Origin: Dehalococcoidia bacterium
GTDB lineage: Bacteria > Chloroflexota > Dehalococcoidia > SZUA-161 > SpSt-899
Assembly (NCBI GenBank): GCA_028711995.1
Contig: JAQTRE010000009.1
Span: 1-46,237 of the forward strand
Reading direction: 5' to 3'
Length of the DNA stretch: 46,237 nt
Shown here: one piece after another, positions 29,653-43,366 of the stretch
Numbering within the stretch: the stretch's first letter is position 1
How the letters are laid out: every line of letters starts with the position of its first letter
Notes under the pieces: generated by a model
Seen by the model: the letters and a program-made list of their open reading frames with translations, nothing else
What the model was told of the DNA's origin: nothing
Databases searched by the model: none
Program-made: the position numbers and the translations under genes

Positions 29653-32600
29653 ATGAAGCGATCAAAATACCGCAAGACGTCATTTGGCGGAGAAGTGGTA
29701 ACCGGCAAAAAGACCAAACTTTTCCTGCAATTGCTGATGGTAATGCTGGTGATGGCAAGCACCGCGGGTGTGGTCTTCTACAAAAACGCTGATTCGGCAT
29801 CTCACCCTCTCCTCGATAAAGCGACCTCAGCGGCAATCGCTCATGCCGATCTCCCGGGGAATAGCCCGTCCGGGCTGGAACCACTCACAGCTGCTATTTC
29901 CATACCCGCAAGCACGCTGGAAACAGCCTCCCATATGGGTGCTCCCGCTAATCAGGTTTCAGGTGGCGAGGTGCCCAATATAAGTACAGCAAGTGCCAAC
30001 GTCACTCTGACGATGGCCAGGGAGGGAAGCGGCATCATCTATCCGACCACAGGCAATCATGACTATGCCCAGGGAACAGTGGTCATAGTCATGGCCACAC
30101 CGGAAAGCGGATGGCGATTTGACGGCTGGACGGGTGACGTGGTCAATCCGAATTCCGCCACTACCCCGGTCAAGATGGACTCGAACAAAACTGTCACTGC
30201 AAACTTCTCCAGGATTTCAGGAAGTGGCGGTGCCGACAGCTCCTATACACTTACCATGGCAATAAGCGGAACCGGCACCACAAATCCGGCCGCTGGGACC
30301 TCTACTTATTCCGGCGGGACAGTCGTCAATATCTCAGCCACTGCAGCAACAGGCTGGCGATTCACCGGATGGACGGGTGATGTGGGCAATAGTAATTCTC
30401 CCTCCACCACCATCACCATGAGCGCCAACAAGAGCGTGACCGCCACATTCGCCAGGGTTCAAGTTCAATATGCTCTATCTACCAGTGTGAGTCCCTCTCA
30501 GAGCGGCACGATCAGCCCGGCGAGCGGAAGCTATGCAGCAGGGAGTTGGGTGATACTTACCGCCACCCCCGCCACGGGTTACAATTTCCTTGCCTGGAGC
30601 GGAGATGTCACTGGGAGCCAGAATCCAGCAACGGTTACCATGGATGCTGCTAAGAATGTAACCGCCATGTTCACCAAAAACCTGAATATTTTATCAACGA
30701 GCATCAGCCCAACCGGTAGCGGCGCCATCAGCCCAAACAGCGGAATTTATGCTGCCGGGAGCCAGATCACCCTCACCGCCACACCTGCCTCCGGCTATTT
30801 CTTCAGCGGTTGGGGAGGAGCCGTCAGCGGAAGCCAGAATCCCCTTACTCTGACGATGGGCTCCGATATGAACATCACAGCCACTTTCACCAAAGTGCAG
30901 AATACCTTATCTACGAGCATCAGCCCGGCCGGTAGCGGCAGAGTCAGCCCAAGCAGCGGGAGCTATGCCGCCGGGAGCCAGATCACCCTTACCGCCACAC
31001 CTGCCTCCGGCTATTTCTTCAGCGGTTGGGGAGGAGCCGCCAGCGGAAGCCAGAATCCCTTTACCCTGACAATGGACTCTTCCAAGGCCGTCACTGCCAC
31101 TTTCACCAAGAGTCAATACACCTTATCCACAAGCATCAGTCCTTCAGGGAGTGGCAGCATCAGCCCGGGCAGCGGCAGCTACGGTGCCGGAAACCAGGTA
31201 ACTCTTACCGCCATACCCGCCTCTGGATACACCTTTAGCGGATGGAGTGGGGCAACCACCGGCACGCAAAACCCGGCCACCGTTACTATGGATGCCAACA
31301 AGAGCGTCACCGCAACCTTCACCAAAGTCCAATACACCCTTTCCAGCAGCATCAGTCCCGCCGGTGGCGGCGTCATCAGCCCGAGCAGCGGCACATACGG
31401 CGCCAGAAGCCAGGCGACTCTCACCGCCACACCCGCTTCCGGCTACACCTTCACCGCCTGGGGAGGATCGGCCAGCGGGAATCAGAATCCTTTGACCATC
31501 ACCATGGACGGGAACAAGAGCATCACCGCGACTTTTACGAGGATTCAATACGCCCTCTCCACCACTGTCAGTCCTGCCGCCAGCGGTACGGTGAGCCCGG
31601 CCAGCGGCAGCTATGAATCCGGGAGTTCAGTGACATTAACCGCCACTCCCTCGGCGGGATACAGCTTTAGCGCCTGGAGCGGAGCCATCACCGGCAGCCA
31701 GAACCCGGTAACCATTACCATGAATGCTGCCAGGAACGTCACCGCGACTTTCACCAAAGACGTCACCTATACTCTCACTGCCAGCCTCAGCCCTGCCGGA
31801 AGCGGAACCATCAGCCCGAACAGCGGAACCTATGCCGCCGGGAGCAGGGTAATTCTTACCGCAACAGCCGCATCCGGTTATACCTTCACTGGATGGAGTG
31901 GGGCAATTGCCAGCACCCAGAACCCGGTTACCATTACTATGAATGCTGCCAAGAGCGTGACCGCCACCTTCACCAAGCTTCAATATGCCCTGTCCACCAG
32001 TGTCAGTCCCACGGCCAGCGGTACGATCAGCCCAGCGAGTGGAAGCTATGCAGCCGGCAGTTCAGTAGTCTTGACCGCCACACCTGCCGCGGGATACAGC
32101 TTCAGCGCCTGGAGCGGAGCTGTCACCGGCAGCCAGAACCCGGTAACCGTTACCATGGATGCCGCCAAGAGTGTAGTTGCCACGTTCACCAATGTTCAGT
32201 ATACTTTATCCACGAGCCTTAGTCCTTCGGGCAGCGGCAGTATCAGCCCGAGCAGCGGGAGCTATGCGGCTGGAAGCCAGGTAACCCTCACCGCCACACC
32301 TGTTTCCGGATACAGCTTCAGCAGTTGGGGCGGTGATGCCTTCGGCAGTCAAAATCCCCTGACCATCACAATGGATTCCAATAAGAGTATCTCTGCTACC
32401 TTCTCCACCACCAACAGTGCTCCCTTCTCTTCGGGATTCTATCGCCTGAGGTTTGAGTTATCAACTACTTCGGATTGGGTAAGCCTCCAATTTGTGAATC
32501 CGGAATTCGTTCTGGCATCAAGGTTTGTTGCCAAGTCTGGAGTTTCTGTCAACGCCGACATATCGAAGATGGACACCGGTCATATGATCTTAACCCAACC

Positions 32601-33762
32601 TCTTGCGAATGCCACGGCAAAACAGAACGTCAGTATGACAGTAGACTATGCGCTGCCTGCGAGTATCCTGAACAGCCCTCCCAACTTCGTCCTTAAGAAA
32701 GGCAATCTCAATCAGGTCACTTTGCGCGTCTATAGTGTTTCAGAGAATCAACTCACTCTCATCCATGAAGTCCAAGTTGGCCAAACCACCCTTCAATTTG
32801 CACTTCAATTTCCACTAAATGTAACCGAGCTGATGAGCATAACACCTGATCCGCTGCCAAACAGTTCAACACAAAAACTCCTGTTGGCATTCTATTACCC
32901 CTGGTATGACACTAGTTCATGGAATAGTCCCAACTTGAGTGATCATCCCCTGCTTCGGTTGCCTTCCAGCTCACCTGCACTAATGGAGGCCCATATCACA
33001 CAAGCCAAGAATGCTGGCATTGATGGATTCATATCCTCTTGGCCAGCACCTGGCTACTATGAAGATTTGAACTTCAAGAAACTACTTGATATTGCACAGA
33101 ATCACGAATTTCAGATCACAGCTTATTTCGAAGCGTTGGCAATGAACGGAACTCTTACCAGGGATGAAATTGCTGGCCGACTTGCATATCTGATATCCAC
33201 TTACGGCAATCATCCGGCATTTGTCAAACATTGTGGAAAACCAGTGATCATCATCTACGCTTCCAGTCATCTTTCCACTAACGTATGGGGAGGAATTTTT
33301 GATGAACTTCGCGCCAAAGGGCTTGACGCTGTCTTTATTGGTGCGGGTTACACGGAAGAAAATCTCACAGTTTTTAATGGCATCCATCAATATAATACTG
33401 TCATTGATCCGAACTTCGGAAAGGCAGCGGAAAACGGGTCTCGATTGGTACGTTCTTACGAGATGCTAAATGATCCTCATGCCCAGCGCATATGGGCGGC
33501 AACAGTTCAGCCGGGTTGCGATGATCGATTACTCGGGAAGACCCCTAGCCATTATGTTGATCGCAGAAATGGCGATACCTATCGGCAGACTTTTGAGGCA
33601 GCACTGCAAAGCAATCCTAACTGGATATTCATCACCTCGTGGAACGAGTGGCCAGAGAATTCACATATTGAGCCAGGCGAGAAATATGGTGACCAGTATT
33701 TGCAGATCACTAAAGAGTATGCCGACAAATGGAAGAATGGCTCTAAAGCCAATGAAACATGA
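29653..33762 (+). CDS. Secreted InlB-repeat protein with C-terminal GH99-like glycosidase domain
   Basis: A 1369-residue exported protein. A basic N-terminus and one hydrophobic helix (about 25-43) form a signal or anchor. Residues about 117-920 are 11 tandem repeats of about 70 residues, each with a GxISPxSGxYxxGxxVxLTATP core, a SGYxFxxWSG turn and an end in TMDxNKxVTATF (divergent InlB B-repeat/Flg_new type). Residues about 925-1065 are a beta-rich linker domain. Residues about 1075-1365 resemble GH99/GH71-type glycosidase folds: LLLAFYYPWYD at the start and FITSWNEWPENSHIEPGEKYG at the end. It probably binds and cleaves a mannose-like or other extracellular glycan. It has a strong Shine-Dalgarno (GAGGGGG) and no C-terminal sorting signal. 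Confidence 0.85.
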   Translation: MKRSKYRKTSFGGEVVTGKKTKLFLQLLMVMLVMASTAGVVFYKNADSASHPLLDKATSAAIAHADLPGNSPSGLEPLTAAISIPASTLETASHMGAPANQVSGGEVPNISTASANVTLTMAREGSGIIYPTTGNHDYAQGTVVIVMATPESGWRFDGWTGDVVNPNSATTPVKMDSNKTVTANFSRISGSGGADSSYTLTMAISGTGTTNPAAGTSTYSGGTVVNISATAATGWRFTGWTGDVGNSNSPSTTITMSANKSVTATFARVQVQYALSTSVSPSQSGTISPASGSYAAGSWVILTATPATGYNFLAWSGDVTGSQNPATVTMDAAKNVTAMFTKNLNILSTSISPTGSGAISPNSGIYAAGSQITLTATPASGYFFSGWGGAVSGSQNPLTLTMGSDMNITATFTKVQNTLSTSISPAGSGRVSPSSGSYAAGSQITLTATPASGYFFSGWGGAASGSQNPFTLTMDSSKAVTATFTKSQYTLSTSISPSGSGSISPGSGSYGAGNQVTLTAIPASGYTFSGWSGATTGTQNPATVTMDANKSVTATFTKVQYTLSSSISPAGGGVISPSSGTYGARSQATLTATPASGYTFTAWGGSASGNQNPLTITMDGNKSITATFTRIQYALSTTVSPAASGTVSPASGSYESGSSVTLTATPSAGYSFSAWSGAITGSQNPVTITMNAARNVTATFTKDVTYTLTASLSPAGSGTISPNSGTYAAGSRVILTATAASGYTFTGWSGAIASTQNPVTITMNAAKSVTATFTKLQYALSTSVSPTASGTISPASGSYAAGSSVVLTATPAAGYSFSAWSGAVTGSQNPVTVTMDAAKSVVATFTNVQYTLSTSLSPSGSGSISPSSGSYAAGSQVTLTATPVSGYSFSSWGGDAFGSQNPLTITMDSNKSISATFSTTNSAPFSSGFYRLRFELSTTSDWVSLQFVNPEFVLASRFVAKSGVSVNADISKMDTGHMILTQPLANATAKQNVSMTVDYALPASILNSPPNFVLKKGNLNQVTLRVYSVSENQLTLIHEVQVGQTTLQFALQFPLNVTELMSITPDPLPNSSTQKLLLAFYYPWYDTSSWNSPNLSDHPLLRLPSSSPALMEAHITQAKNAGIDGFISSWPAPGYYEDLNFKKLLDIAQNHEFQITAYFEALAMNGTLTRDEIAGRLAYLISTYGNHPAFVKHCGKPVIIIYASSHLSTNVWGGIFDELRAKGLDAVFIGAGYTEENLTVFNGIHQYNTVIDPNFGKAAENGSRLVRSYEMLNDPHAQRIWAATVQPGCDDRLLGKTPSHYVDRRNGDTYRQTFEAALQSNPNWIFITSWNEWPENSHIEPGEKYGDQYLQITKEYADKWKNGSKANET
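30001..32412 (+). repeat. Eleven coding tandem repeats (InlB-type)
   Basis: Units of about 210-225 bases encode about 70-residue repeats. The first two are divergent (TMA..GSG..YP). The next nine are similar at DNA level; units 4 and 5 are nearly identical across CTTACCGCCACACCTGCCTC-type stretches. This suggests recent internal duplication and a locus prone to copy-number change. Confidence 0.9.
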
Positions 33763-33840
33763 TAGCCTTATGACATATGGATGATTCATTGGCTTTAGAG
33801 TTAGTTAGGCGGCTTCACAGAAGAATCCAAGCCCATGGAT

Positions 33841-33988
33841 ACCACGGGAAAACGCGTGGTGTCCAGTTCACTTCAATTGAATGCCTTGATAAACTTCCCA
33901 CGACCTTACGGTCGGGGTATTACTTCAGGTCAAACTTCGTTTGCCCTGCTTTCGCAGGGAGAACTTCCTCCCTCGACCACAATGGTCG
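33841..33988 (+). repeat. Hairpin array X (possible IS200/IS605-type remnant or structured RNA)
   Basis: Five consecutive stem-loops: ACCACG/CGTGGT (33841-33860), CGACC-TTAC-GGTCG (33901-33914), CAAAC-TTC-GTTTG (33931-33943), CCCTGC-TTTC-GCAGGG (33944-33959) and CGACCA-CAA-TGGTCG (33974-33988), the last followed by GGGGAA. The order and several motifs match array Y at 36901-36992. There is no coding capacity. It lies in the gap between the GH99-like protein and the epimerase. Confidence 0.65.
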
Positions 33989-34059
33989 GGGAATCAAGTT
34001 TCGTAAGTTGAATCTGGGTGCGAGCCTGAAGTCTTTTCTAATCCAAAACATGAGCCTAA

Positions 34060-34088
34060 TTGTTTATCGCGGGCTTATTGCTTATAAT
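34060..34088 (+). promoter_or_regulatory. Promoter TTGTTT-17-TATAAT, possibly leaderless
   Basis: A perfect TATAAT (34083-34088) lies 17 bases after TTGTTT. It ends 7 bases before the ATG at 34096, the same spacing as at the activase gene. AGGGG lies only two bases before the ATG, too close for a normal Shine-Dalgarno. Confidence 0.5.
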
Positions 34089-34095
34089 AGGGGTC

Positions 34096-35022
34096 ATGAA
34101 GAAAAGAGTGGTTGTCACAGGAGGAGCCGGTTTTATCGGATCCCACCTCGCTGTCGAATTGGCACGCCGGGGCTGCTATATCACTATCATCGATGATCTC
34201 TCCACCGGGAAGAAAGAAAACATCGAGGGACTGCTGTCAAAGGGTAATGTCCAATTTGTGCATGATAGCATCACTAATCTCCCCCTGCTTCAGCAGCTTT
34301 CTAGGAACGCTGACTGGATATTTCATCAAGCAGCCATCGCCAGTGTGCCCAGCAGTATTGATAATCCCTTGGCATCCCACGAGGTCAATGTAACGGGGAC
34401 CCTGAATGTGCTCCTAGCGGCTAGGGACAATGGCGTCAGAAAAGTCGTTGTTGCATCTTCCTGTGCGATTTATGGCGATCCTGTTGTACTGCCGGTGTGC
34501 GAGCACATGCCCTCCGATCTCCAATCACCCTATGCTGCAACCAAATTGGCTATGGAGCACTACTGCGATGTTTTTCAGCGCGTCTATAACCTCCCAAGTA
34601 TTTGCTTGAGATATTTCAACGTCTATGGCCCCGGCCAGAGCCCTGATTCGCAGTATGCAGCAGTTGTCCCCAAGTTCATTCAACACGTGCGAGAAGGAAA
34701 TTCTCCTGCTGTCTTTGGAGATGGGGAACAGACTAGGGATTTTGTCTTTGTACGTGATGTGGTGGAGGCGAACATTCTTGCGGCTGAAAGTGATGTCACC
34801 GGCATTTTCAACATCGGAAGCGGAGAACACATCTCTCTGAATACGTTGGCAGAAAAGATTATCCGACTCATGAACAAGGATGTCAGAACAATTCACAAGG
34901 AGCCCAGACTGGGCGATATTCGCCATAGCCTGGCTGACATTTCCAAAGCTCAAATATTTGGCTACAGGCCAAAATATGATTTGGAATCCGGGCTGAGAGA
35001 AATCTTGGGGAGACTGAATTGA
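34096..35022 (+). CDS. NAD-dependent sugar-nucleotide epimerase/dehydratase (extended SDR)
   Basis: A cytoplasmic NDP-sugar epimerase or dehydratase of 308 residues. The Rossmann motif TGGAGFIGSHLA lies at the N-terminus. Further marks are the catalytic SS-x(n)-YxxxK set (ASSCAIYGDP, SPYAATKLAMEHY) and LRYFNVYGPGQ, which is typical of UDP-GlcNAc/UDP-glucose 4-epimerases (WbpP/GalE type). The in-frame TTG at 34060 would add 12 hydrophobic residues unlike the family, so ATG at 34096 is chosen. It is followed by the flippase gene about 260 bases later on the same strand. It probably makes a sugar precursor for the surface glycan. Confidence 0.92.
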   Translation: MKKRVVVTGGAGFIGSHLAVELARRGCYITIIDDLSTGKKENIEGLLSKGNVQFVHDSITNLPLLQQLSRNADWIFHQAAIASVPSSIDNPLASHEVNVTGTLNVLLAARDNGVRKVVVASSCAIYGDPVVLPVCEHMPSDLQSPYAATKLAMEHYCDVFQRVYNLPSICLRYFNVYGPGQSPDSQYAAVVPKFIQHVREGNSPAVFGDGEQTRDFVFVRDVVEANILAAESDVTGIFNIGSGEHISLNTLAEKIIRLMNKDVRTIHKEPRLGDIRHSLADISKAQIFGYRPKYDLESGLREILGRLN

Positions 35023-35285
35023 ATTCCCGGGACTGACCTATGATGACTTTACCCCCTTCATTCTGGGCCTATAGGGCCTATTTAACGCTGATGGATTCTG
35101 TATTGTGGTTCCTCTGGACTGGTTGTGGAATTTGCCGTTCTCATCTGAGCCTTCAGTTTATCCGCGCTGATGAAGGGCGCGAATGACACTAACAATTATA
35201 ACATCCAACCGCTCTGAAACCACACACCCTACACTATTTGAGATGTTATGCCCCACAGCAAAAACACTTGTTTTCATGCTCCACA

Positions 35286-36794
35286 ATGACGGACGGTAAA
35301 CACAACGAAGAGGCCTCTTCTCAATCTGTTGGCGAGCCGCAGAGATTTGCTCTCGATATCATCTGGGTGGCCATAGCACAGGTATTCACCTCAGCAATAG
35401 CCATCTTTACCTTACCCGCTCTGACTAAGTCTTATTCCTCAGAAACTTTCGGTATATGGGTCCAGGTCAGTATGACAGTCAGCTTACTGACCCCGCTTTT
35501 CGTTCTACAACTAGGGACTGCACTGGTCAGATTTCTGACTGCCAGCGCAGCCAAGGAGAAAAAACGTCAGATCTTCGGCGCAATGCTCATCCCCATCCTC
35601 GTTTTCTCAGGCCTTGTCGCGGTGGCTGCAATGCTGCTGGCGCAACACCTCTCCTCGGTTATTTTCGCTAGCCCTGCTCATGCCACTTTTGTTCGTTTGG
35701 CTGTCCTCTGGACCATTGTTGAGGCGCTCTTCTTTTTTGGTATTTCCTACCTGCGCGCTGATGGTAAGATCAAGACGTTGTCAACTGTTTCGGCAGGTGT
35801 CGCTGTGGCTAAGATGGTGCTGATAGTAACACTGGCCAAATCGGGGTTTGGATTGCAATGGGTGATTATCAGCGTGATAGTGGCAGAGCTAGGGTTTACA
35901 TTAGTGGTTTTCGGTCTCATTATTAGGGAGATCGGATTTCCCAAGCCAAATACCATGGGTCTAGGGGAATTCCTTGCTTTCAGTATCCCTCAACTGCCCA
36001 GTAGCCTTTTATTGTGGATAGTCAGTTCCAGCGACCGGTATTTCATTACTCATCTGATCAGTATATCACAAGCCGGGGTCTACTCATCATCCAATACCTT
36101 AGCCAGTTTGATGGCTCTGTTTTATGCCCCAATCGGCTTTGTCCTTTACCCTACCCTGTCAAAAGCCTGGGAGCAAAATCGGCTGGTAGAAGTAAGAAAC
36201 TATCTTGAGTACTCAACCAAGCTTTTTCTGACTCTGGCTATCCCCGCTACTGCCGGGCTAGCCATCTTGTCGCAGGCCCTCTTGAATCTCCTGACTACCC
36301 CGGAATTTTTGGTCGGAGGGAGATTGGTGCTACTGGTTGCAATTGGGGCCGTATTTCTAGGAATATACCAGATGAATCTCTATATTGTCCTTCTGGTACG
36401 GAAGACCAAATGGTTGCCTTTGTTCGTAGGGGCCGCGGCAGCAATCAGTGTTGGCACTAACGTTGCTTTGATCCCCCGAATCGGGATCATGGGAGCTGCG
36501 GTTTCTAACATTGCTTCGTATTTTCTCTTGGCCTCAATTGTGTCTTTGTGGGCAAGAGAGACCGTTCACTATAGCATCGATCTGCTGTATCTAGGCAAAG
36601 TCATTGTAGCGACTTTGGTTATGGGCTTGTGTCTATGGGTGATGGACCTTAATGGTCCTTTCGGGATTATTCTGGGAGCATTTTCGGGAATGGTCATATT
36701 TGGCATCGGACTTCTCTTGATGAGAGCCTTTTCAGAGCAAGATAAACAGCTTGTCAGGGAGACCGTTAGGGCTCTGATGCCATCAAAGCGTTAG
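35286..36794 (+). CDS. Polysaccharide flippase (Wzx/MATE-like)
   Basis: A polytopic membrane protein of about 502 residues with 12-14 hydrophobic helices. It resembles the polysaccharide transporter/Wzx branch of the MOP exporter superfamily: the N-terminal helix ALDIIWVAIAQVFTSAIAIF, conserved SYSSETFGIWVQ, and the central SSDRYFITHLISISQAGVYS. It would flip lipid-linked glycan units across the membrane. The frame is open back to a TTG at 35238; ATG at 35286 is preferred because the extra residues are not family-like, but neither start has a clear Shine-Dalgarno. The upstream gap (35023-35285) has a short GGGCC palindrome and no supported promoter. Confidence 0.88.
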   Translation: MTDGKHNEEASSQSVGEPQRFALDIIWVAIAQVFTSAIAIFTLPALTKSYSSETFGIWVQVSMTVSLLTPLFVLQLGTALVRFLTASAAKEKKRQIFGAMLIPILVFSGLVAVAAMLLAQHLSSVIFASPAHATFVRLAVLWTIVEALFFFGISYLRADGKIKTLSTVSAGVAVAKMVLIVTLAKSGFGLQWVIISVIVAELGFTLVVFGLIIREIGFPKPNTMGLGEFLAFSIPQLPSSLLLWIVSSSDRYFITHLISISQAGVYSSSNTLASLMALFYAPIGFVLYPTLSKAWEQNRLVEVRNYLEYSTKLFLTLAIPATAGLAILSQALLNLLTTPEFLVGGRLVLLVAIGAVFLGIYQMNLYIVLLVRKTKWLPLFVGAAAAISVGTNVALIPRIGIMGAAVSNIASYFLLASIVSLWARETVHYSIDLLYLGKVIVATLVMGLCLWVMDLNGPFGIILGAFSGMVIFGIGLLLMRAFSEQDKQLVRETVRALMPSKR

Positions 36795-36900
36795 CGTGGG
36801 AAGTTAATCCCATAGTAAGCGATGCGGCTTTTGCACCAAATGAGGTACATAATTGCAGTGGTGTAATGAAAACATGCACCTGGAAAAGAGTAGTAGATAC

Positions 36901-36992
36901 CCACGCCTTTACAGGCGTGGCACTTGCGGGTTCAAGCGGAGCTTGTCCTGCTCGGCTCTCACGCCCCGTCTTCACAGGCGGGGAACTCCCGC
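36901..36992 (+). repeat. Hairpin array Y (same architecture as array X)
   Basis: Stem-loops CCACGCC-TTTACA-GGCGTGG (36901-36920), CAAGC-GGA-GCTTG (36933-36945) and a 7-bp stem starting CCCCG and ending CGGGG (36964-36983). GCGGG/CCCGC (36926-36930 with 36988-36992) encloses the last two and forms a multibranch. A GATACCCACG start and a CGGGGAA end are shared with array X. It lies between the convergent flippase and FemAB-like genes. The layout resembles the structured right ends or omega-RNA regions of IS200/IS605 elements, without any TnpA/TnpB gene. Confidence 0.65.
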
Positions 36993-37063
36993 TTGATTAG
37001 AAAGGTGTTCTAGTGCAATTCCCTCTGTCTATCTTGCATGACTTCGATGTCCGTTTTTCCATC

Positions 37064-38122
37064 CTATTTCAATGCGGATTCAATGATGCTCTGTCTTATC
37101 CGTTCAGGCAGCTTTGGCACGACAAACCTCCCCATCCTGAACGCGTATTCGCGCAAAAGGAAGGCTCTTCTATTCAATGGCAGCATAACCGAGTAATCTT
37201 GGCCAAAAGTCAGCCCAAACTTAGCTTTCTGCTTATGGTGAACTTCTTGCGGGTCGGAACTATTGGATCCCATATTCAGACGGCGATAGCCGTGGCCCTG
37301 GGTCCATTTAAGAAGTTCCCAGATCAGACTGTAGTTTATAGTGTCATAACGGGCTGTCCTGTCAAGCCCCATGTATGGCACATGAACGGTCTTGCTGGGC
37401 TCATGAACAAAGAAGCCCATTCCACCGATGGCCCTATCCTGATTTGTGAGCAAGATTATGTGAAAATTCGTCGGGTGAAGTGATTGGAAAAGCTCCTGGA
37501 AAAAGGATTCAACATATGGGATAGCGCCGATATGCAGAATGTTTTGGCGATATAATTCATAGAATATTCCCATATCCTCAGCAGTGGTTACTTCCGTACT
37601 CAGATAGCCACCTTTGCGAATTCGATTGATTCGTTTTCGCTCCTCCGCCCTGAGAATATCATTCCAGATAATCTCCGGCGGCTTATCCTCAAGATCGATC
37701 TTCATCACCCCGTGACTGGTGTCCAGGCGTGATCCTGGAATGGCCGCTGCCTTACTCATCTCTTCGTCTGAAAAGTGTACAATAGCATACGTAATTCCCA
37801 TTCTTTTGGCTGAACTCTGCAAATGTTGAACCAGTGCTTGCACCACTGGCTTGGCCAAGCCTTCTGCGCACAATGGGCCTCCATAATCGGAATAACTTAA
37901 CGAATCCAAAACCCTGATGAGCGCAAGTTCTTTCCGTATCACAAAAGGGCAGAGCCCGATCATTTCACGATTTGAGTCCCGAACCACTAGGTAGTGAGGC
38001 TTAACATTGAAACACTTCTCTAGGATGTTCCTCCATGCCAGTGTGTGGTAGAAGGTTCCCTGTGGGGATTTGGCCACAAAATCCTCCCACTCTTTCTCGT
38101 CGCTCAGAGGTTCAACAATCAT
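37064..38122 (-). CDS. FemAB-like GNAT-fold transferase
   Basis: A 352-residue cytoplasmic protein of the FemAB/FemX-like acyltransferase group, with two GNAT-like halves. SPQGTFYHTLAWRNIL near residue 20 and YSDYGGPLC are typical of the family, as is the C-terminal half with GGMGFFVHEPSKTVHVPYMGL and INYSLIWELLKWTQGHGYRRLNMG. Such proteins use aminoacyl-tRNA to extend peptidoglycan peptides, and related forms occur in exosortase and exopolysaccharide gene clusters with unknown substrates. The Shine-Dalgarno is strong (AAGGGGGG). It lies 22 bases after the GNAT gene, in one operon. Confidence 0.85.
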   Translation of the reverse strand: MIVEPLSDEKEWEDFVAKSPQGTFYHTLAWRNILEKCFNVKPHYLVVRDSNREMIGLCPFVIRKELALIRVLDSLSYSDYGGPLCAEGLAKPVVQALVQHLQSSAKRMGITYAIVHFSDEEMSKAAAIPGSRLDTSHGVMKIDLEDKPPEIIWNDILRAEERKRINRIRKGGYLSTEVTTAEDMGIFYELYRQNILHIGAIPYVESFFQELFQSLHPTNFHIILLTNQDRAIGGMGFFVHEPSKTVHVPYMGLDRTARYDTINYSLIWELLKWTQGHGYRRLNMGSNSSDPQEVHHKQKAKFGLTFGQDYSVMLPLNRRAFLLREYAFRMGRFVVPKLPERIRQSIIESALK

Positions 38123-39095: not shown

Positions 39096-40341
39096 GTATA
39101 TCGTTTCATTAAAGTATATCCATTAAAAAGCAGGGGCAAAATCAAATTTCTTCCATCGATGTACCCCGGGAGAATCGTTGATTTCCTTGACCCCTAACAG
39201 GATTCTTTCCTTGAGTTCCTGTTTGGAATTGACGCGAATGTGCTTCAGAAATGTTCTGGCCATTTTCCCGAAAAGCGTTTCGACCAGATTTAGCCAGGAG
39301 CCGTGTGTAGGCGTATGAATATAAACGAATCGTCCCGGTCTTCCGGCAAGGTATTTCATCGTCTCCTTGGAGATGTGGGCCGAATGGTTATCCAGGATGA
39401 TACGGATGGTAGATTCCGCCGGGTAGTAAGCATCCAGATCCTTAAGCAGCGATATGAACTCCCGGCTGCGATGCCTGTCATGAACCTGGGCAGTCACATG
39501 ACCGTTATGCAAATCCAGGGCCGCCAAGATCGACAATGTCCCGAGGCGCTTGTACTCATAGTCCCGCATCACTCGGGATTGCTGTCCTGGTTCAGGCATG
39601 ATATCGGGGGCGACATTCTTGATGGCCTGAAGCCCCGGTTTTTCATCTACAGATACGGTGATGACCGGCGGTGCGCCACTCATTTCCTCCGCTTCGTTTT
39701 GAAGATTGACCTCCTTGTACACGCACAAAACATTCGCCATTTTCTGCTCAAACTCAGGATCGCGTTTCTCCAGGTAATAGGCCATCTTATGAGGGCGTAT
39801 CGGATGTCCTTCAAGTATCCTCTGTATCGTAGCCTTGGCCGCTTTCTGCAAACAATCGTGTCCCGCTTCCGGTCCATATCTCCTGGCATGAGCCGCCAGA
39901 GCGCTCCGCGTCCATATCTCAGCGGCATAGCCATACTCGGTCGGTTTCTTGCAGGCCAGATTAATGACCCAAGCCTTCGCTGCTTCGGTAATCACCGGTT
40001 CCTTGGGACGATGATACTTGTCTTTCAGCCCTTCTTCGATACCCACGGCCAGCGCCTTGTCTACCCACTTGTAAATGGTCGGCCTGCTGACGTGAGTCAC
40101 TCTTTCAATCTCGGTGATTGGCATGCCTTCTGAGTATCGTAACAAGATGTTAGCCCGCTGCGCTTCTCTGACCGGCGCCTTTCGTGAACCGGCCAGTTGC
40201 TGTAGCTGTTCTTTCTTGTCCTGCCCGAGGACCAGTGTTGGCCTGCGAGTCTTGCGTGGCATATGGATTCCCTCCTATCCTTTCTGCAACCAATATACCA
40301 CGAATTGCTTTATATGTAAATATTATGATGAAACATTATAC
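39096..40341. mobile_element. IS630-family insertion sequence, complete (1246 bp)
   Basis: The ends read GTATATCGTTTCAT on the left and, reverse-complemented, GTATAATGTTTCAT on the right; over 28 bases the inverted repeats match at 21. Both ends abut a TA dinucleotide (39094-39095 and 40342-40343), the target duplication expected for IS630/Tc1-type elements. One transposase gene fills it. Confidence 0.85.
39123..40262 (-). CDS. IS630-family transposase
   Basis: A 379-residue transposase with an N-terminal helix-turn-helix (ITEIERVTHVSRPTIYKWV, about 52-70), a second DNA-binding segment and a DDE_3 catalytic domain. The triad is D206 (VSVDEKPG), D291 (ILDNHSAH) and E328 (NLVETLFG). The frame is intact, so the element may still be active. 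It reads in the same direction as the neighbouring deacetylase and acyltransferase genes. Confidence 0.93.
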   Translation of the reverse strand: MPRKTRRPTLVLGQDKKEQLQQLAGSRKAPVREAQRANILLRYSEGMPITEIERVTHVSRPTIYKWVDKALAVGIEEGLKDKYHRPKEPVITEAAKAWVINLACKKPTEYGYAAEIWTRSALAAHARRYGPEAGHDCLQKAAKATIQRILEGHPIRPHKMAYYLEKRDPEFEQKMANVLCVYKEVNLQNEAEEMSGAPPVITVSVDEKPGLQAIKNVAPDIMPEPGQQSRVMRDYEYKRLGTLSILAALDLHNGHVTAQVHDRHRSREFISLLKDLDAYYPAESTIRIILDNHSAHISKETMKYLAGRPGRFVYIHTPTHGSWLNLVETLFGKMARTFLKHIRVNSKQELKERILLGVKEINDSPGVHRWKKFDFAPAF

Positions 40342-41357: not shown

Positions 41358-41754
41358 TTTATAACCCTTTATTGATAGAGCAACCTGCCATTGCTATTTT
41401 TATATCTGGCCTCTCTGTTGAGTGCTCTTTATTTTTCTCTGCTTCCAGTAGATACCCACGGACATAGCCCGCGGAACTCTGCAGTTCGGTTTCTTTACCC
41501 CTTTTTGTGTCCCATTTTAACTGACGGTCTACACGCTATCAAGCTCCATCTCCTCCTGGACATGATGGTTATCTGCCGGATTTCGCGGTGATCACCGATG
41601 GCAAGGCGGCCGATGTTACCACCGCTCGTCATTTCACCCTTCCCACCGGCAGCATCGTCGCCGTGGATCGCGGCTACTATGATTTCGATCTTTTCGCTCA
41701 ATGGAATAGCTCCAGTGTTTTCTTCGTTACCCGGCTCAAAAGCAACGCCGCTTA

Positions 41755-42869
41755 CTAATAAGTTCATAAGTAACTAGACTTTTCCCTGGGTTTCTGGTAC
41801 GATATAGTTGTGCGAGATAATGATGCCAGAAAGCTTGACCATCAGACCCTTGAGCAGATACGAATGCGCGCGGTACAACAGATCGAGCAAGGCGAGCATC
41901 CGGATGATCTGGCTCGTACGTTGGGCCTGGCGCGCTCCACAGTATTTGGTTGGATGGCCCGATATAGGGAAGGTGGCTTGGATGCGCTCAAAGCGCAGCC
42001 CGTGCCGGGTCGGCCACCGAAGCTGGTGGGAAGTCAGTTGAATCGGCTGTATGACTTGGTTGTCGGTAAAGACCCACGTCAGTTGCGCTTCGAATTCGCA
42101 TTGTGGACCCGGGAGATGGTGCGAGAGTTGATTCACCGAGAGTTCAACATCAGGCTGTCCGCGGTAAGTGTAGGACGGTTGTTGCATAAGATGGGGCTTT
42201 CGCCACAGCGTCCTCTCTGGAGGGCATATCAGCAGAATCCGGCGGCCGTGGAGCGGTGGAAGAACGAAACATATCCGGCCATCCGTGCACAGGCAGCGGC
42301 CGAAGGAGCGACCATCTACTTTGGGGATGAGGCTGGAGTTCGAAGCGATTACCATGCTGGCACCACCTGGGCTCCGGTCGGGCAGACCCCGATGGTGCGT
42401 ACGACCGGAACACGCACATCGTTGAACCTTATCTCCGCTATCACCACGAAGGGCGCATTGCACTTTTCCACCTTTGAAGGTAATCTGGACTCCCCCAAGT
42501 TTATCGACTTCTGCAGCCGACTGATGCAGGACACCATGGGACCGGTATTTCTCATAGTAGACGGCCATCCGGTGCATCGCTCCAAGGCGGTAAAAGAGTT
42601 TGTGGATTCCACCCAGGGTCGGTTGCGTCTTTTTCGTTTTCCGTCGTACTCTCCTGAACTCAATCCTGACGAATGGGTTTGGAAGAACGTCAAGGCAGAC
42701 CGTGTCGGCCGAGCTGGCATAACCACCATCAAAGGAGACCTTGCCACCAAGGTGATTGCCGCATTGGACCGTCTCAAAGAACTTCCCCATCTGATCCGCG
42801 GATTCTTCGCAGACCATAACCTGCGCTATGTCACTGCCTGATCTGTCCATATATTTATGCACGTATTAG
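41755..42869. mobile_element. Second IS630-type insertion sequence, complete (1115 bp)
   Basis: The left end, CTAATAAGTTCATAA, and the reverse-complemented right end, CTAATACGTGCATAA, are inverted repeats. TA flanks both ends (41753-41754 and 42870-42871). Removing the element rejoins the IS4 reading frame (NAAY followed by an open frame), which proves insertion into that gene. Confidence 0.85.
41810..42841 (+). CDS. IS630-family transposase (second type)
   Basis: 343 residues, starting at GTG. An N-terminal helix-turn-helix (LARTLGLARSTVFGWMARY, about 35-53) precedes a winged-helix region and a DDE_3 domain with D173 (YFGDEAGV), D251 (LIVDGHPVH) and E288 (LNPDEWVWK). It shares the fold but little sequence with the transposase at 39123, so it is a different element. 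The frame is intact. Confidence 0.93.
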   Translation: MRDNDARKLDHQTLEQIRMRAVQQIEQGEHPDDLARTLGLARSTVFGWMARYREGGLDALKAQPVPGRPPKLVGSQLNRLYDLVVGKDPRQLRFEFALWTREMVRELIHREFNIRLSAVSVGRLLHKMGLSPQRPLWRAYQQNPAAVERWKNETYPAIRAQAAAEGATIYFGDEAGVRSDYHAGTTWAPVGQTPMVRTTGTRTSLNLISAITTKGALHFSTFEGNLDSPKFIDFCSRLMQDTMGPVFLIVDGHPVHRSKAVKEFVDSTQGRLRLFRFPSYSPELNPDEWVWKNVKADRVGRAGITTIKGDLATKVIAALDRLKELPHLIRGFFADHNLRYVTA

Positions 42870-43366
42870 TATATCCGTAGAGAACCGTCCTTTGCCCCAG
42901 CGATCCAATATCCTTGCCGACCAGATGATTCGCTTCACGGGCCCAATTGCCCGTCTGCAGTACCCTTGGCCGTTGCGCCGGGTAGTGTGGTATGGGATGC
43001 CCAAAACCAGAAGGAGATCGAGCTTCTCACCAATCACCTTCGCTTTGGATCCACCACTATCGGGAATATCTACCGGGACCGCTGGGAGATCGAACTGTTC
43101 TTCAAGGTACTCAAGCAGCATCTGAAGATCAAGACCTTCGTCGGCACCAGCCCCAACGCTCTCAAAACCCAGATTTGGACAGCATTGATTGCGCTGCTGA
43201 TTCTCAAGTATCTCCAGTTCCGCTCTCAATGTAACTTGCCCTCTGGCACTTGGTGGCTCTCCTTCAGCTGAACCTGTTCTCCTATCGCGATCTCTGGAGT
43301 TGGCTCGATGATTCCTTCGAAACTCCACCCCAACTGCCGGACCCCCAGCTCAGGCTGGTATTTTAG

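Follow-up and report, generated by a model that had tools for sequence, protein, structure and literature searches.

In the insertion sequence IS608 of Helicobacter pylori, guide and cleavage sequence are joined by three base pairs, the third of which connects position 4 with position 4 and fits the published IS608 sequences. The other two, A+16:T-3 and A+17:T-4, are part of the same pairing between the cleavage tetranucleotide and the four bases 5' of the hairpin foot (PMC5934647). IS608 and ISDra2 encode TnpA transposases of the Y1 HUH type, carry tnpB in addition and use their own tetra- or pentanucleotides (TTAC, TTGAT). The palindrome-associated transposable elements (PATEs) of Haloquadratum walsbyi are short and transposase-free; palindromes near their termini resemble those of IS605-type transposons, and both terminal inverted repeats and target duplications are lacking. 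They occur as near-identical copies and also as terminal-only versions with a single palindrome, for which deletion between palindromes has been described (PMC3119063). Small hairpins with a GTAG-like tetranucleotide are likewise spread by a Y1 enzyme in REP/BIME-RAYT systems.

Two elements of the 46,237-nt stretch of Dehalococcoidia DNA analysed here (the window), named A and B, share all these PATE features, including the subterminal imperfect palindromes at both ends; they have no transposase gene, and a Y1 TnpA of the IS200 type is encoded elsewhere in the genome. We are highly confident that A and B are two related non-autonomous transposable elements of the IS200/IS605 type (PATE/MITE type), and that they join a known kind, the PATEs and the archaeal IS200/IS605 MITEs, is well supported (Table 1). 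Unlike the PATEs, whose partners are mostly tnpB elements, A and B have a partner of the IS200 type (tnpA only), their guide/cleavage pairs are directly readable and their genome is a different one; with 104-119 bp they are also shorter than the IS200/605 MITEs of 341-570 bp that PMC3852290 gives for archaea. No published description of the A or B families was found in limited libraries.

Table 1. Features of the predicted elements A and B and of a single-hairpin relic (window coordinates; left and right in the sense of tnpA)
Feature	Position	Strand	Remarks
Element A	36893..36996	-	104-bp window copy of a 113-bp non-autonomous IS200-type element; boundaries are the end of conservation
Ends of A	left end 36996, right end 36893	-	
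CL of A, target/left cleavage tetranucleotide CTAA (TTAG on +)	36997..37000	-	outside the element; predicted by guide AGTT
GL of A, left guide AGTT	36984..36987	-	foot of left hairpin; pairs c1:g2, c2:g1, c4:g4 with CTAA
IPL of A, left-end hairpin CCCCGCC-TGTGAA-GACGGGG	36964..36983	-	one C-A mismatch here, perfect in sisters
Internal hairpin 3 of A, remaining arm GCAGGA	36946..36951	-	other 10 nt deleted; from alignment to six intact copies
Middle hairpin of A, CAAGC-TCC-GCTTG	36933..36945	-	relic of tnpA 3' codons (GQAPLEP vs GQAKLEL*)
GR of A, right guide AGTG (AGTA in six sisters)	36921..36924	-	covaries with CR
IPR of A, right-end hairpin CCACGCC-TGTAAA-GGCGTGG	36901..36920	-	
CR of A, right cleavage tetranucleotide CTAC (GTAG on +)	36893..36896	-	4 nt past the stem; pairs with GR
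Element B	33889..34007	-	119-bp non-autonomous IS200-type element; second copy has unrelated flanks
CL of B, TCAA (TTGA on +)	34008..34011	-	predicted by guide GATT; conservation boundary between both copies
IPL of B, hairpin CCCCGACCATTGTGGTCGAGGG	33970..33991	-	one bulge; guide GATT at 33992-33995
Internal hairpin 3 of B, CCCTGCGAAAGCAGGG	33944..33959	-	
tnpA 3' end relic in B, GQTKFDLK-stop	33920..33946	-	compared with GQAKLEL* of intact TnpA genes
Middle hairpin of B, CAAAC-GAA-GTTTG	33931-33943	-	inside the tnpA relic
IPR of B, CCCCGACC-GTAA-GGTCG(T)GGG	33897..33917	-	hairpin
Right guide of B, AATA	33918-33921	-	
CR of B, TTAT	33889-33892	-	
Degenerate single-hairpin relic	41448..41495	-	left-type guide AGTT and right-end tail GTATCTAC; GTAGATACCCACG pattern match; 3' limit approximate

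A search of the host genome (G000, a 3.32 Mb draft in 240 contigs, 96% complete with 4.5% contamination) identified six further copies of A with 86-89% identity to the window copy; five of these sisters have the same sequence throughout ~117 bp, between flanks that are unrelated. The window copy is slightly damaged: it has one mismatch in IPL and is missing 10 nt (TTCGCAGGAA) that are present in all six sisters. A second copy of B, 98% identical over 127 bp, lies at C25:20312-20438. The copies of both elements are placed at unrelated loci in either orientation. Family A is absent from the 98 relatives that were searched and found in the host genome only, and for family B the same relatives had single-hairpin matches only, in two genomes. 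A can be aligned to B with about 60 invariant columns and the two look like related families with one module order. The near-identical copies suggest recent activity of both elements, which may well continue. A short stretch adjoining B (34025-34057, CTAATCCAAAACATGAGCC...) recurs at several sites in the host and in the relatives G002 and G003, often near contig ends, and is perhaps the end of another IS.

Several Y1 TnpA genes with similar ends are present in the host genome (PF01797 matches). TnpA scores 118.9 bits against the NCBIfam IS200/IS605 transposase model (cut-off 55) and aligns to solved IS200/IS605-type TnpA chains in the PDB, among them the ISHp608 transposase. Two of the tnpA genes, on contigs C23 and C57, end in ...GGTCAAGCGAAGCTTGAACTGTAA AAGTG-CCACGGGCTTGCCCGTGG-GTATCTAC or a close variant, and this ending is the reverse complement of the + strand start (GTAGATACCCACG...) of the array at the A site (array 2); the arrays are therefore to be read on the minus strand. 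Read this way, each has a left end (CL, guide, hairpin), an internal hairpin, a tnpA relic and a right end (guide, hairpin, CR). The original prediction had described hairpin arrays at both sites and, since A and B are both on the minus strand, its hairpin order was inverted: what it gave as the first hairpin is the right end of the transposon and its last hairpin the left end.

The tnpA genes L029 and L031 sit in elements of 535 and 499 bp, whose right end consists of CAAGC-NNN-GCTTG ... hairpin-GTATCTAC, as in A. With the IS200-group elements of C23 and C57 (tnpA only), A and B have in common the end architecture, the guide code, the right-end hairpin, the GTATCTAC tail and the last tnpA codons; unlike these, A and B lack the rest of tnpA, target CTAA and TCAA rather than CCAA and have an extra internal hairpin, CCTGC-GAA-GCAGG. 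Neither an autonomous element with the exact ends of A or B nor, in the host, the exact parent carrying the hairpin-3 module was found; given the former, the mobilising enzyme is one that we infer, and A and B are probably moved in trans by a TnpA of this genome. L031 (C57) is a tnpA copy with an internal deletion and L041 (C25:20195) a 5' tnpA fragment that adjoins a single-hairpin element and the second B copy; the two may represent decay stages of the autonomous element.

The shared hairpin architecture proposed for the two sites, clusters of hairpins in one module order, is present at both, but the start of array 1 (the B site) was misplaced: the hairpin at 33836-33865 lies outside the repeated unit and has no match elsewhere in the genome, and the true counterpart of the first hairpin in array 1 is CCCACGACCTTACGGTCGGGG at 33897-33917. 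The 'CCTGCT' module exists too, but is actually the 5' arm of another hairpin that is intact in array 1 (CCCTGCTTTCGCAGGG, 33944-33959); only 'CCTGCT' is visible in array 2 because the window copy of A lacks 10 nt of this hairpin.

The sequences also have the reported difference in the middle stem, CAAAC/GTTTG versus CAAGC/GCTTG, which had been taken as a compensatory change, but it separates two different families and is for this reason weak evidence by itself. Better compensatory changes were found inside family A: in the copy on contig C88, the stems of both IPL and IPR are changed from GCC/GGC to GTC/GAC. Furthermore, the middle stem (CAARC-NNN-GYTTG) coincides with the last tnpA codons, which read GQAKLEL-stop in the intact genes; A has GQAPLEP in their place and B has GQTKFDLK-stop. 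In IS200 relatives at a greater distance, the position is taken by GQLRLQL or GQFRMEL and there is no such stem; the stem is thus at least partly a by-product of the coding sequence, and the change between A and B says little about selection on an RNA.

On contig C88, a copy of A is located close to the beginning of a reading frame that is Lrp/AsnC-like, as named from its sequence; this copy interrupts the 5' end of the gene, while the paralogues are intact. Removal of 113 bp, with CTAA kept, results in gap-free alignments to four paralogous genes of the same genome (149, 133, 110 and 110 bp), which is direct sequence evidence for a precise insertion 3' of CTAA without target duplication. The Lrp/AsnC-like, regulator-like family is unusually expanded in this host, with 33 matches to one such domain, often two per reading frame (C178, C13, C102, C88). 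For the window copy of A, the two flanks correspond to the end of an IS3-like element in the relative G003, with the left junction at CTAA and about 8 nt missing at the right junction: this alignment is consistent with an empty site but not clean. The flanks, 36853-36892 and about 37043-37075, resemble ends of an IS3-like IS that is multicopy in G003 and G014, and A seems to be nested in a short IS3-like remnant. No empty site was found for B, which is known from two copies, and joining the flanks of the other A copies and of the tnpA elements restored no convincing gene except at C88.

CTAA is the sole tetranucleotide common to the left flanks of all seven A copies. All three base pairs of the IS608 rule can form at every end of A and B: the guide/cleavage pairs are AGTT/CTAA (left) and AGTG/CTAC (right) in the window copy of A, and GATT/TCAA (left) and AATA/TTAT (right) in B. 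The six sisters of A have AGTA/CTAT at the right end, so that the window copy differs from them in both members of one pair, a compensatory guide/cleavage change. In a set of 24 right ends, from the host genome and from loci with related TnpA genes, one fixed offset (4 nt past the stem) gives Watson-Crick pairing for 69 of the 72 pairs predicted, and when the unique guide/cleavage pairs were permuted 100,000 times, the observed value was never reached; as some of the ends are homologous to one another and part of the set had already served to recognise the rule and the offset, the numbers show covariation rather than 24 independent events. Other offsets resulted in 8-46% pairing. At 16 left ends all 48 pairs fit (45 of 100,000 permutations of unique pairs), a weaker result, as the site positions were read by eye.

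Folding is strong at both sites, with z-scores of about -4.5 and -4.0 for the arrays as RNA; on minus-strand DNA they are -5.96 (B), -2.72 (window copy of A) and -5.79 (an intact copy of A). The original prediction had suggested a structured RNA or a single-stranded DNA element, possibly the guide-RNA/right-end portion of a lost IS200/IS605 element; a single-stranded DNA element of this family is right, but the tnpB and guide-RNA part is not. In this transposon family, the omega-RNAs of TnpB overlap the right ends, where hairpins are present, as they would be in a remnant right end with guide-RNA scaffold from a lost tnpB element (IS605/IS1341). It is highly improbable that A and B are such remnants: the host genome has no match to the TnpB/OrfB models PF01385 and PF07282, with the same searches being positive in control genomes, left and right ends are both present, the active strand is the minus strand, and the relic of coding sequence derives from the 3' end of a tnpA rather than a tnpB gene. 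No copy is linked to tnpB, but the same kind of ends is linked to tnpA; the partner gene is tnpA of the IS200 type. An Rfam scan of the window had no match and a tRNA scan returned nothing.

An alternative in which the arrays are REP/BIME-type palindromes, mobilised by a domesticated transposase of the RAYT (TnpA-REP) type, would be in line with the single-hairpin copies and with the + strand start GTAG near the hairpin foot, as in REPs (PMC3733652), but GTAG here is the CTAC cleavage site read on the opposite strand and not a guide at the foot. Moreover, the left and right ends of A and B differ from each other, and an empty site shows insertion at a specific site. The TnpA, itself multicopy, is part of a complete element whose two ends are different; the one TnpA scanned is, with 25.6 bits, far below the cut-off of 80 of the REP-associated model (REP_Tyr_transpos) and, with 118.9 bits, far above the IS200 cut-off of 55. 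We therefore regard an origin from such a system as very unlikely. A structured RNA maintained and duplicated by the host, such as a regulator or a terminator cassette, would explain the strong folding and the compensatory stem changes; it hardly comes into consideration, as the copies are scattered over unrelated places and in either orientation, one of them interrupts the 5' end of a gene with intact paralogues, conservation stops exactly at the cleavage tetranucleotides and none of the 98 relatives has a family A copy.

A and B have each kept a left end (CL, GL, IPL), a right end (GR, IPR, CR) and the last few tnpA codons, while the remainder of tnpA is gone. In the mechanism that we propose, the hairpins would fold once the minus strand is in single-stranded form and could be bound by an IS200-type TnpA (HUH, Y1) that is supplied in trans, and the guide tetranucleotides would position CL and CR for cleavage via base pairing. 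The element would probably leave as a single-stranded circle, with the donor being resealed, and the circle would enter a new site, 3' of CTAA in the case of A and of TCAA in the case of B, as selected by GL; the target would not be duplicated.

The window site near 41451 that had been proposed to resemble the arrays is indeed related to them: it is a single-hairpin end near 41448. Together with C25:20195, C62:13431 and C35:5800 it belongs to a group of single-hairpin copies that combine left-end sequence with a right-type tail, and these look like deletion products between the similar left and right palindromes, as for the terminal-only PATEs. The surrounding region is rich in mobile elements: the ORFs at 39123-40262 (-) and 41810-42841 (+) look like IS630-type transposases and a transposase-like fragment is found at 42966-43271. 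A 1369-aa ORF (29653-33762) resembles a surface protein rich in repeats, as it contains about ten tandem copies of the pattern YTLSTSISPSGSGSISP...GYTFSGWSG ahead of a C-terminal domain. Its 3' end is overlapped by a strong inverted repeat at 33741-33800 with 20-nt arms that are 95% complementary, likely a terminator or another small repeat.

The different targets of A and B (CTAA and TCAA, versus CCAA of the autonomous element) raise the possibility, which we put forward tentatively and consider somewhat doubtful, that several non-autonomous families of a single genome borrow the same TnpA and have been re-aimed through changes in the guide tetranucleotides only; guide and cleavage site would then change in step, even from one sister copy to another in the same family. 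Such re-aiming by guide change would be the natural counterpart of the guide reprogramming done in IS608. An odd-looking structured repeat is explained by known single-strand transposition, with the caution that stems like CAARC-NNN-GYTTG, where they adjoin such hairpins, can be remnants of a coding sequence and not RNA structure under selection. The 24 right ends, the 16 left ends and the one window copy with a paired change make up a natural data set in which a rule of three base pairs, applied to the DNA of a transposon, tells which target it chooses.
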